From IMG/VR virus record IMGVR_UViG_3300034691_000040, positions 62,001 to 126,000 of that record: a stretch of DNA of 64,000 bases; one strand, given 5' to 3'. The position numbers and the translations under genes were made by a program. Of the stretch, positions 50,008 to 63,368 are shown piece after piece (positions within the stretch are counted from its first letter, which is position 1; each line of letters opens with the position of its first letter). This stretch comes from a virus. A model generated the notes under the pieces. It was given only the letters and a program-made list of their open reading frames with translations. It was not told the DNA's origin and did not search any database.

Positions 50008-50031
50008 CCATGGGAGGGTGACCTCCCATGG
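50008..50031 (+). other. GGGAGG/CCTCCC hairpin with GTGA loop
   Basis: CCATGGGAGG-GTGA-CCTCCCATGG, a 10-bp perfect stem with GNRA loop, 25 bases before the terminase ATG. Compare 48241-48260. Confidence 0.68.
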
Positions 50032-50056
50032 TCGTTACTATGCCGCAGGAGCATTC

Positions 50057-52222
50057 ATGGCAATTCTTTATAAAAAGGATTGGGAGAAATACCCAACCGC
50101 TGTTGCAAACGTTTATTCAGCAAACGAATCTTGGGTCCAAATGGCGTTTAAGCTTAAAGCCATGGGGGTACAGAACTGGGAGTGGTCTCTTGCTTTAATC
50201 CAACCGCAGTTGGTGGGTGTTGATATCTGGTCTACCGAACTGACCCTCAATCAGAAAATCATGATTCTGAACGAGTGTGAATGGAACCCATGGTTCGTAT
50301 TACGCGAAGTCATGCGGGTCCCTGCTAAGTCAGGTGGCGGTACTGGATACTTGGGGGCAAACCGGGGTAACCTGGCATTGTTCTGGTGTTTCTTTAACTC
50401 ATTCATGGTCTATCTGCAACAGATCCGTCAGACGGGTAAATCCCTGAACGTACGTATCCTGGTTGTGGCATGGCACACCTTCTGGGCTCGTGGCGCTCAA
50501 CACATCCTCTTCACCAAGAGTGACTTGCGGGTTGAAGAGATCAAGGAATACAAACTGATCCGTAGTTTCATTCCTTCATGGATGTGGGAATCACACCCTA
50601 AAGATTCCGATAACCAAACAGCCTTTACAACACTGTCACGCGGTAATAGCACCAAAACTTACATCCCTACCATGGAAGAAGAGAACGCCAACAAAGTGGG
50701 GCGTGGTACAACCCCTACTCTGGTGACGACGGACGAAGGTCCCTTCTTGAAGCACGCCAGGATCTCCGTTGTATCGCTCCTGTCTGCCACGGGTGCGTCG
50801 TTTCGTGAGGCTGAAGCAAAAGGCGCCATGTTTGGTGTTATCTTTACAACAACGGCGGGTGACTTGTCGACGGAGTCCGGTAAGTACTTCTACAACAAGA
50901 TCAAACGTCTGTCGATGCACTTCTCTGAGTTTCTGTACGATAGCGCTAACCGTGAAGAGGCCATTGCTATCATCTTGGCTAACGGCGCTCGTGAAGAACC
51001 TCGTGTGGACATTACCTTCAGTCACCGTCAACTCGGCATTGAAGATGATGACCTGCGTAAAATGATTGCACGGGCATCGGGTGAGATCGACCAGACCAAA
51101 CGTGACTACCTGAACCAATGGACATTCGGTAGTGCGGCTAACCCAATTCCGCCTCAGATCCTTGAGCAGATCCGTCGTGGTATTAACGATCAGGTGATCA
51201 GTCAACAAGACGCCAAGAACTACTTTAGTATCAGGTTCCACCTACCACCTAGTGAAGTCGCCAAACGTCACAGCGTCCTTGGGATGGATACCTCGAACGC
51301 CATTGGTCGAGATGCTATCTCCGGTATCCTGACCGATGTGGAGACGGGTGAAACGCTTGCAGCTTGGACAGTGAGTGAATCCAACCTCAGTATCTTCACC
51401 ATGTGGCTGGCTGGGCTGTTTGAACTCTGGCCTTTGATGACCATGGTTCCTGAAGCTAAATCATCCTGGGATGGTATCCGTGACCGTTTGCTGATCGAAC
51501 TGCCTCTGCGTGGCATTGACCCTGGTCGTCGTATTTACAGCCGGGTAGTCGACGATTCTGAAAACAGCGATATGGACCGTCGTCGTTACAGGGAATACTC
51601 TCAGGGGTCGCCTTCTGAGCGTAAGTACGCACCGTTCCGTAATCAGTTTGGTTTCCCTACATCGTCTTCTTTGCGGGACACGCTGTACGGGGAAATCTTG
51701 CGTGAGGCTACACGTCATGGTCCAACGTTAATCCGTGACCAGTTGCTGGTGGATGAGCTGTCGAGTCTTGTAATGAAACGTGGCCGTATTGACCACGCTG
51801 CATCCGGGCACGATGACCATGTAATCTCATGGCTGATGAATCAATGGTTCTTGCGCTATGCCCGTAACTACGATCACTACGGTATCTCTTCGAGGTCTGT
51901 GTTGTCGAGGTTGCGTCAAGCGGCTATTGCGCACGATCCAAAAGAAACATCGAAACTGATGCGTCAGGAAAAGATCAAGCGTCAAATCGTTGAACTTGAA
52001 GAACGGATGGAAAATGCTAAGTCGGCTATGGAAGCGGCTTACTACAGCAACCGTTTGAAATCTATTCGTTCTGAATTGGTTGAAGACGATAGCGTTCCGA
52101 TCGACAGTGTGGATAGCGCAGCAGAACGTGGACGTGAGTCCCGGATCAGCAACGCGAAAGAGAAATACCGCGGTGGTTCTCTGGCAGAGCAAATCCGCCA
52201 GGGCATCAATACTCGCAGATAA
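50057..52222 (+). CDS. Terminase large subunit (gp25-like)
   Basis: A 721-residue DNA-packaging motor. The ATPase half has a Walker A-like QTGKS at residues 125-129, Walker B TLVTTDE with Asp226-Glu227, and a coupling motif FTTTAG near 263-268. The nuclease half shows VLGMDTSN (Asp near 411, RNase H-like first acid) and GHDDHV near 585 (metal-binding acids). This is the domain order of T4 gp17-type terminases: ATPase translocating DNA into the prohead, then nuclease cutting it. ATG 50057 with AGGAG is chosen over an upstream in-frame ATG. A shared hairpin terminator follows the stop codon. No small terminase is evident here, as in other phiKZ-like phages. Confidence 0.9.
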   Translation: MAILYKKDWEKYPTAVANVYSANESWVQMAFKLKAMGVQNWEWSLALIQPQLVGVDIWSTELTLNQKIMILNECEWNPWFVLREVMRVPAKSGGGTGYLGANRGNLALFWCFFNSFMVYLQQIRQTGKSLNVRILVVAWHTFWARGAQHILFTKSDLRVEEIKEYKLIRSFIPSWMWESHPKDSDNQTAFTTLSRGNSTKTYIPTMEEENANKVGRGTTPTLVTTDEGPFLKHARISVVSLLSATGASFREAEAKGAMFGVIFTTTAGDLSTESGKYFYNKIKRLSMHFSEFLYDSANREEAIAIILANGAREEPRVDITFSHRQLGIEDDDLRKMIARASGEIDQTKRDYLNQWTFGSAANPIPPQILEQIRRGINDQVISQQDAKNYFSIRFHLPPSEVAKRHSVLGMDTSNAIGRDAISGILTDVETGETLAAWTVSESNLSIFTMWLAGLFELWPLMTMVPEAKSSWDGIRDRLLIELPLRGIDPGRRIYSRVVDDSENSDMDRRRYREYSQGSPSERKYAPFRNQFGFPTSSSLRDTLYGEILREATRHGPTLIRDQLLVDELSSLVMKRGRIDHAASGHDDHVISWLMNQWFLRYARNYDHYGISSRSVLSRLRQAAIAHDPKETSKLMRQEKIKRQIVELEERMENAKSAMEAAYYSNRLKSIRSELVEDDSVPIDSVDSAAERGRESRISNAKEKYRGGSLAEQIRQGINTRR

Positions 52223-61381: not shown

Positions 61382-61421
61382 CCCAGCTTCGGCTGGGCTT
61401 TATGTCATCTTTCTTTTTTTT
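61382..61421 (+). terminator. Rho-independent terminator with TTCG loop
   Basis: CCCAGC-TTCG-GCTGGG followed after 16 bases by eight T. Confidence 0.75.
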
Positions 61422-61422
61422 G

Positions 61423-61850
61423 TACTAAACTACACGCCTGTGTATCTTATGTTCGCCACCTAATACTTCTTGAGGAAGGGGAGGAAGGGGGTGGATTTTA
61501 CGGAGTAAAATCCGGGGGTAGGTAGGGAAGGAGTAAGACGCATCCGCAGAGAGTCGAGCGAAGCGATGATGAACAAGGATATCTTTAGTCGACGAAGTCG
61601 ACTAGGGAAGTTATTTTTAACATGATTAACAGATCCTATTTTCCAAGATAAAGAATTAGTTAACAATGGACTGGGAGAATACCCAGTCCCTTATGACGCA
61701 ATAGATCAAAGATACCATCAAAAGAACAAGAGAAGGGAGGTCTTCAACCTCCCGCTTTTATAGAGCAGATCAAGAACAGAATAAGGAAGGAGGTTTACAA
61801 CCTCCACTTTTACAAACCAATGAGATGTTAACTTAATAGGAATCTTTCCG
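61423..61850 (+). other. Non-coding region with five hairpins
   Basis: No credible gene in 430 bases; both strands lack a frame with a ribosome site. It begins with a purine-rich GA/G stretch (61470-61545) and holds five separate perfect stems, at 61493-61513, 61586-61604, 61668-61689, 61735-61753 and 61789-61805. The last two lie in an imperfect tandem duplication of about 55 bases and end with CTTTTA or ACTTTTA. Candidate for small RNAs or a long structured leader of the 61851 gene; see findings. Confidence 0.5.
61735..61805 (+). repeat. Imperfect tandem repeat with GGAGG/CCTCC hairpins
   Basis: Two units starting near AAGAACA (61722 and 61772) share AAGG, a GGAGGT...ACCTCC hairpin and a TTTTA tail. 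The loops (CTTCA and TAC) and flanks differ, while both stems remain perfectly paired. Confidence 0.55.
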
Positions 61851-62429
61851 ATGGAAGCTTATTCGAAATTCTTGGGTGATGTATTTAATGCATCATCTTT
61901 GTCTGTTGAAGTTAAGTCTAAAGGTAAGTCTTTGAGTAAAGACGAAAGCAATGCCTTTGACGATTCTGAAGAAGAAGGTGATGGTATTCGTCTTGCCAGT
62001 GAACCTGGCCTACGTGAGCAGGGTAATGTCATGATTGACATCAACTCTACCTCCAGTCAGTACCAAGACACTCTCCACTACGTGGCAGAGTCTTTGCGTA
62101 AGAATGGATACAAGGTACGTCTTCGGTACGAAGGCATCGACATGAGCCTTGAGAGTGTGTCTGACGGCATCATGCCGGGGAACATGTCACTCAATGGTAA
62201 TAACGCAGTGAACAACGTGATGAACGGTGTTTACGTACCTGATTTCAAAGACACTGACTTGTTCAAGCAAGTGACAGTGATCCAACCACAAGACCACGCA
62301 CCAGAAAATAAAGATGGTGTATTGTTCATGGTTGATGACGGTAATGGTGAGATGAGTAACTACCTGAAGGATGAAGGGTATCAGGTAGCCAGTGATGCTG
62401 AAACATTGGAACTCCTGCTTTCGGCATAA
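61851..62429 (+). CDS. Unknown acidic 192-residue protein
   Basis: ATG 61851 behind ATAGGAA. The N-terminal 55 residues are Ser/Lys/Glu-rich and probably disordered (SKGKSLSKDESNAFDDSEEEGDG); the rest is mixed alpha/beta (GYKVRLRYEGIDMSLESV, VLFMVDDGNGEMSNYL). FNASSLSVEV near residue 12 and SLES near 100 contain protease-like S-X-E tripeptides, but there is no other link to the head. It follows the structured non-coding region, which would be its leader. Family unknown. Confidence 0.65.
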   Translation: MEAYSKFLGDVFNASSLSVEVKSKGKSLSKDESNAFDDSEEEGDGIRLASEPGLREQGNVMIDINSTSSQYQDTLHYVAESLRKNGYKVRLRYEGIDMSLESVSDGIMPGNMSLNGNNAVNNVMNGVYVPDFKDTDLFKQVTVIQPQDHAPENKDGVLFMVDDGNGEMSNYLKDEGYQVASDAETLELLLSA

Positions 62430-62531: not shown

Positions 62532-63368
62532 CTATAGACGTGGTTTGCCACCAAGGTTGAGTTTGATGATCTTGCGGTATTTGTCCACATCCTGAATGAT
62601 AGCGAGCTTAGCCCATTTCACGTCAACGAATTCGTTGTACATGGTGGTGGCATCAGCATAGCTGTCAATGATCTCACGGATACGACCCAGGGTTGCACCA
62701 CTGCGGATGAAACCTTCATCAAGGTCGATGATGAGTGTGTTGTAGACATGTGACTTAACTGCCAACACAACCATCTCAGCAAAGTCCCGGTAATAAGGTT
62801 GCTTGATGTCATTGAAGTTGGGTTCGTGACTGACCGTACATCGTACTGCCGCATCGCCCATCACTTGGTTTGAGTCATTGACCAAGATGGTGTTGTGGTT
62901 AAGCAACTGCACGTAAGACGTACCCATCATTGCCACGCCATTGGTGGCTCTGATGATGTTGCGCACATCTTTAAGCATACCGGAACTGCGTGAGTCAAAC
63001 CCAGTGGCAGTCGATCCAGTCAATGCCTGAGTCAGACCGTAGATCAGTTCATGCACAGTACTGATCTTTCGGTTACCCAATACGCTAGGAGGAAAACGAT
63101 AAATGATGTTCCAGCTGTCGACATACTCTCGTTCAGCTTGACGCATCGGCAATAAGACTTCGGTACCCCCCACCAAATTAACATCAATGGCTACACGACC
63201 TTCGATGACCAGCTCGCGGATCTTCTCATCCAGCGAGATAGCGTCAACGTTATCGAAATAACGATCCTGACGCGTAGGGTCGTATCGTTTAGCAGAAAAA
63301 GCTTGGTTTAAAACTTCCCTTGGGATCTCGCGAAGAACCCGCTGGATTGCAACCGTAATCGGCGTCAT
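62532..63368 (-). CDS. Unknown 278-residue protein, probably virion-associated
   Basis: ATG at 63368 with GGGAG upstream. Mixed alpha/beta, begins MTPITVAIQRVLREIPREVLNQAF, with beta segments (YNTLIIDLDEGFIRSG) and a basic C-terminus (KIIKLNLGGKPRL). It is transcribed divergently from the tubulin-like gene. Size and style fit a conserved virion or assembly protein, but no motif is recognised and the call rests on context alone. Confidence 0.6.
   Translation of the reverse strand: MTPITVAIQRVLREIPREVLNQAFSAKRYDPTRQDRYFDNVDAISLDEKIRELVIEGRVAIDVNLVGGTEVLLPMRQAEREYVDSWNIIYRFPPSVLGNRKISTVHELIYGLTQALTGSTATGFDSRSSGMLKDVRNIIRATNGVAMMGTSYVQLLNHNTILVNDSNQVMGDAAVRCTVSHEPNFNDIKQPYYRDFAEMVVLAVKSHVYNTLIIDLDEGFIRSGATLGRIREIIDSYADATTMYNEFVDVKWAKLAIIQDVDKYRKIIKLNLGGKPRL

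Follow-up and report, generated by a model that had tools for sequence, protein, structure and literature searches.

What kind of element occupies a gap of about 430 nt that encodes no protein and yet is dense in perfect stems? The window analysed here is a stretch of 64,000 nt, bases 62001-126000 of a 126,847-bp IMG/VR virus record, and its genes, which include those for a multisubunit RNA polymerase beta subunit, a giant tail protein and the large terminase, are a set typical of phiKZ-like jumbo phages. The gap lies directly upstream of a gene that starts at position 61851, and its plus strand contains no open reading frame of 40 amino acids.

The five perfect stems described for this gap in an earlier reading of the letters alone (the original prediction) are exact, at 61493-61513, 61586-61604, 61668-61689, 61735-61753 and 61789-61805, and their density is far above that of the rest of the window. 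Five stems of at least 7 bp fall within 486 nt here, against a mean of 0.45 per 486-nt tile of the window, and the only tiles of this size with three or more such stems are the two that overlap the gap region. The RNA fold of the region is 3.5 sd better than those of dinucleotide shuffles, and none of 100 shuffles equalled it. A purine-rich run noted at the same time also holds up, as no purine tract of 18 nt or more other than GAGGAAGGGGAGGAAGGGGG exists on either strand of the whole 126,847-bp record. No Rfam family scored above its curated threshold for the region, and the low-threshold matches look like noise. The imperfect tandem repeat that had been pointed out is real, with a unit of ~53 nt (61731-61819), but it is lineage-specific, with one copy in the closest relative, L002, and none in some other relatives; the duplication is secondary and lies outside the conserved part. 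Three features had been missed: the TATG at 61448-61451, the GNA loops and the way the purine arms mirror each other. The element spans about 61448-61696, and the features in and around it are as follows.

61382-61421, plus strand: upstream intrinsic terminator, a UUCG-type hairpin followed by TTTATGTC and a T-run, with equivalents in relatives; predicted from its sequence to close the preceding transcript.
61448-61451, plus strand: TATG, agreeing with the late (nvRNAP) promoter motif of phiKZ; +1 predicted at G61451.
61472-61491, plus strand: 5' purine arm, strictly purine; predicted purine strand of the duplex within a triplex.
61493-61513, plus strand: central hairpin of 9 bp with a C-GGA-G triloop.
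61514-61533, plus strand: 3' arm (G/A/T), mirroring the 5' arm and predicted to be the third strand.
61555-61568, plus strand: mini-hairpin C-GA-GC-GAA-GC-GA-T-G, with tandem G.A oppositions, a covarying 2-bp stem and a GNA triloop.
61586-61604, plus strand: terminal hairpin of 8 bp with a C-GAA-G triloop.
61605-61666, plus strand: A+T-rich stretch past the structured core (A+T of 0.77 in two 30-nt bins past the core); candidate unwinding region.
61668-61696, plus strand: terminator-like hairpin with CTTATG after it, where a ~240-nt transcription unit is predicted to end.
61735-61753, plus strand: first hairpin of the tandem unit, lineage-specific and terminator-like; single copy in L002.
61789-61805, plus strand: second hairpin of the tandem unit, an exact stem and terminator-like.

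DNA and protein searches of a phage collection returned no matches in cultured phages for the gap region or the 61851 protein. The conserved neighbour gene at 62532-63368 (phrog_3179; homologue PHIKZ042) did identify relatives, first L002 (87% identity) and L003 (61%) and then 80 loci. Both L002 and L003 have a gap of ~410-450 nt upstream of a homologue of the 61851 gene, and it contains the same stems in altered sequence. A descriptor scan located the core in all loci with a neighbour gene identity of at least about 37%, except for L038 and L040, which carry versions with short mirror arms only, and L036-type duplicates that had already been counted. The element is also present in an unannotated gap of the cultured Pseudomonas phage pPa_SNUABM_DT01 (DT01; MW735835.1, about 119,576-119,976), and five records (L151, L153, L162, L164 and L165) came from scanning for the hairpin tip, giving a total of about 30 related phage records, some of which are possibly the same phage. 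Each of seven records from the DNA search has a single copy, as do the records that the covariance model matched. The gene downstream of the element belongs to a conserved family in group A; several unrelated genes occupy this position in group B, where the form of the element is retained. The group A model gave no convincing match in distant relatives, among them phiKZ, 201phi2-1, Goslar, EaH1 and FLC9, and a group A motif scan yielded no additional members. Since group B members such as DT01 escaped the same model too, the lack of matches in distant relatives is weak evidence of absence. On our best explanation this is a DNA-structure element that selection keeps in one clade of phiKZ-like jumbo phages.

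The 20-nt purine arms on either side of the first stem (61493-61513) are mirror images of one another. Read outward from the central hairpin, the 5' arm of the window is GGGGGAAGGAGGGGAAGGAG and the 3' arm GGGGGTAGGTAGGGAAGGAG. The L030 arms both run GGG, 2 nt, GG, 1 nt, GG; in L035 the 1-nt spacer becomes 2 nt on both sides; and in L042 31 positions are matched in register. We compared the arms of 17 non-redundant members, placing the arm ends at the outermost G-run, beyond which there are a few T/A oppositions. Because the members are related the resulting counts are not independent events, but 364 of the 366 opposed positions obey a simple code (5'/3'): G/G at 226, A/A at 81, A/T at 53 with the A on the 5' arm, and C/T at 4, the two remaining positions being G/A. 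The 5' arm has C at only those four positions and T at none, and T is found in the 3' arm only, facing A or C, so that the A/T asymmetry is 53:0. Agreement between a member's own arms was 0.994, compared with a mean of 0.702 and a maximum of 0.923 after arms were swapped within clades, and none of 20,000 such permutations reached the observed value. A strict mirror descriptor run over both strands of 2.54 Mb matched at element loci only. The five records found by their hairpin tip served as a holdout, and all have mirror arms; L158, an unrelated viral contig that shares the tip, has none. G-runs are equal in length in 97% of opposed cases and in 25% of neighbouring ones, which favours a ladder that is matched position by position.

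The original prediction held that a lack of stem conservation in relatives would count against it; the stems are conserved, with compensating changes. The core stems show 40 double-changed cells in the alignments (26 in group A, 14 in group B) and no one-sided (G-U) changes. Their covariation score was reached by none of 500 shuffles and collapses on a shift of one column. No G-U intermediates were present in the 34 pairs examined; their absence fits DNA hairpins better than RNA, but the sample is small. G.T wobbles are found in 0 of 167 element pairs versus 22 of 256 terminator pairs, a contrast that is biased by the trimming of element stems at Watson-Crick ends, and for this reason we rely instead on the alignment counts of double and one-sided changes. 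Almost every core hairpin tip is a GNA or GNNA loop, the exception being C-ATA-G in L039; a few core loops are closed by pairs other than G-C, and the central hairpin of group B has a tip of the same type as the 61555-61568 mini-hairpin. The only perfect C-GNA-G triloop hairpins of at least 6 bp on either strand of the 64-kb window are the two in the element. GNA and GNNA loops form extraordinarily stable mini-hairpins in single-stranded DNA (PMC4686876), and the same loop rule is required for the extrusion of N4 promoter hairpins at physiological supercoiling (PMC4496689). The tip motif alone is unspecific, as it also occurs in bacterial repeats and in L158.

The code of the arms, G.G:C, A.A:T and T.A:T, is the pattern expected of an antiparallel purine-motif DNA triplex. 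The oppositions of C and T would correspond to T.CG triplets, a tolerated exception in purine-motif triplexes. In this motif the triplets A(T)AT and GGC are antiparallel, one strand is purine, and T is allowed in the third strand only (PMC4666352); the 53:0 restriction of T to the 3' arm is this third-strand rule. The arms combine a mirror repeat, a near all-purine sequence for the predicted duplex strand and G, A and T in the predicted third strand, as in purine-motif H-DNA. Positional identity between antiparallel arms does not arise from Watson-Crick pairing or from a dimeric protein site, as the latter gives inverted repeats. Together the mirror arms, the GNA loops and the lack of G-U changes point to folded DNA. 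On these patterns we consider it probable, with some reserve, that the arms form an intramolecular purine-motif triplex (*H-DNA). Against this, L038 and L040 have short mirror arms only, and physiological K+ favours G-quadruplexes over antiparallel triplexes (PMC9473520).

All members have TATG at an equivalent position, which in the window is 21 nt upstream of the 5' arm. TATG is the late promoter motif of phiKZ, with its G as the start site; TATG alone is insufficient as a promoter (PMC4666361). Downstream of the core most members have a terminator-like hairpin, its tail T-rich or containing TATG. Judged by these motifs the element region is probably transcribed, and its apparent transcription unit makes a small RNA possible.

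We propose that the phage RNA polymerase starting at TATG, or the negative supercoiling behind a polymerase, would open the locus. The 5' arm would remain paired to the template strand, while the 3' arm would fold back around the central hairpin and sit in the major groove as the third strand. The non-template strand, to which the 3' arm belongs, would also extrude the downstream mini-hairpins. Opposite the 3' arm, the template strand would either be free or be held by nascent purine-rich RNA as an R-loop or H-loop, the latter being the name given to an R:R-Y structure with an RNA-DNA hybrid (PMC6356060). The open site could then act as an origin of replication that depends on transcription, as at T4 oriF, where a promoter is combined with an A+T-rich unwinding region and an R-loop (PMC3016281). 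Our best explanation of the locus as a whole is a transcription-activated non-B DNA element that is a candidate R-loop origin, and we judge it about as apt to be wrong as right. The origin role, which is suggested by the likeness to T4 oriF, the single copy, the position in a non-coding gap and the A+T-rich stretch, is put forward tentatively, by analogy. GC skew in three long relatives gave no clean origin signal, and as the group A model did not find the element in phiKZ and other distant relatives it would not be a universal origin of the family. The most specific form of the proposal, a class of regulatory DNA in which a promoter-switched, mini-hairpin-capped purine triplex kept by compensatory mirror evolution is the start of jumbo-phage replication, we hold to be unlikely. 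Among the roles offered in the original prediction, a site for replication or packaging proteins is the closest to a folded-DNA reading, with the packaging half of that option rated low.

The main rival to a DNA structure is a structured phage non-coding RNA of ~240 nt that would start at TATG, end at the 61668-61696 hairpin and act in trans or as a scaffold, its G-rich arms forming an RNA quadruplex or binding protein. The promoter-like and terminator-like ends of the members and the covarying stems would be expected of such an RNA, and phiKZ is reported to express non-coding RNAs (PMC13282480). Against it, no antiparallel RNA fold with mirror pairing is known, and RNA is reported to be unable to form purine-motif triplexes (work cited by PMC4666352). 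The absence of G-U intermediates, the lack of an Rfam match and the GNA tips, which contrast with the UUCG loops of several upstream terminators in the same phages, also argue against an RNA, and we regard it as somewhat unlikely. A G-quadruplex, in which two copies of the hairpin (from two genomes, or one of DNA and one of RNA) zip together through their G-runs or the element folds on itself, is favoured by the many G-runs of 2-5 and by K+ (PMC9473520). A hairpin dimer would also require opposed runs to be equal in length, and the quadruplex option of ViennaRNA improves the fold of the window, but the same option leaves the folds of L002 and L003 unchanged. Single G's and A/T positions are matched as well as the runs are, and the 53:0 T rule is not predicted, which makes a quadruplex improbable. 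Its single-molecule form needs four equal tracts, and a four-tract intramolecular G-quadruplex, our first model, was rejected on run lengths (neighbours 25%, opposed 97%).

A packaging (pac) site, or another DNA-processing site recognised by a terminase or nuclease, would suit a single-copy, non-coding element, and the large-terminase gene is ~9 kb away (50018-52222). Such a site leaves the promoter motif and the mirror code unexplained. Counting further against it, we know of no packaging recognition motif in this phage family, and we consider it quite improbable. The suggestion that the gap is a long 5' leader controlling the 61851 gene found no support. In group A the element does lie directly upstream of the 61851 family, but its form is kept before unrelated genes in group B, a terminator-like hairpin stands between element and gene, and its ends resemble those of a transcription unit of its own; a leader is very improbable.

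In decades of study H-DNA has mostly been treated as repeats arising by chance or as a cause of instability, and to our knowledge direct evidence of selection maintaining an H-DNA fold is scarce. The folded-DNA element proposed here shares with purine-motif H-DNA the mirror purine strand, the G.G:C/A.A:T/T.A:T code and a pyrimidine strand supplied by the complementary DNA. It differs in that a hairpin parts its halves, its arms are not simple repeats, and its symmetry is kept by co-changing substitutions across ~30 phage records. The TMECO/BoxC intrastrand triplex repeats of bacteria are likewise intergenic and have purine-motif triplex potential, but they are abundant and have their three strands, a C-rich one among them, on a single DNA strand (PMC4666352), whereas the element is single-copy where tested and has no conserved C-rich complement of its arms on the same strand. 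The N4 virion RNA polymerase promoters also have C-GNA-G triloop hairpins able to extrude from supercoiled DNA (PMC4496689). N4 has several such promoters, however, while the element is one site with its hairpins on the non-template strand, downstream of TATG. An N4 vRNAP-type promoter was rejected, as it requires a hairpin centred ~11 nt upstream of the start and the element hairpins begin ~40 nt downstream of the predicted start. T4 oriF and oriG, which are R-loop origins, have a phage promoter, a region apt for a persistent R-loop and an A+T-rich stretch (PMC3016281), to which the promoter motif, the candidate R-loop region and the A+T-rich stretch of the element would correspond, but they are not known for triplex or mini-hairpin structure. 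The building blocks of the element are already known. Within the limited scope of the open-access literature searched, we found no phage element with mirror symmetry maintained by compensation and no description of a replication origin for nucleus-forming jumbo phages. Two strands changing together under a triplet code are to a triplex what compensatory base pairs are to an RNA. If the reading is correct, a cultured phage would offer a naturally occurring triplex open to genetics, and nucleus-forming jumbo phages a candidate site of replication or transcription control.

Several related arrangements were seen elsewhere. The tip ATGACGAACGnAGTGAGGAAT is present in 25 stretches of cellular genomes (L172-L196), in repeat-like hairpins, where ~0.5 would be estimated by chance. 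The assemblies concerned, often with several copies each, include Omnitrophota, Nitrospirota, Ancylomarina and Methanocellales. These multicopy bacterial and archaeal repeats share the tip GACGAACGnAGTGAGGA with the element and differ from it in lacking mirror purine arms and in occurring in several copies in some assemblies; they presumably resemble REP/RAYT elements. The more distant L051, L061 and L054 have either G6-TTT-G6 beside AAAGCGAAGCTTT mini-hairpins or G5 runs with several GAGCGAAGCGA tips nearby, and are possibly degenerate or parallel versions of the element. In phiKZ (L019, 13505-13559) a hairpin of G6-G7 runs directly follows TATTATG between gp37 and gp38, and 201phi2-1 (L024, 17790-17975) has a like hairpin after TATTATG at a nearby place, both without mirror symmetry. 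Many phiKZ-like phages have terminator-like hairpins followed by T(T)TATGNNG, with the TATG overlapping the terminator tail. Such sites occur in the window at 61382-61409 and 61668-61696, and also in L011, L021, L023 and L026; the overlap possibly represents a terminator-promoter overlap or a special termination signal.
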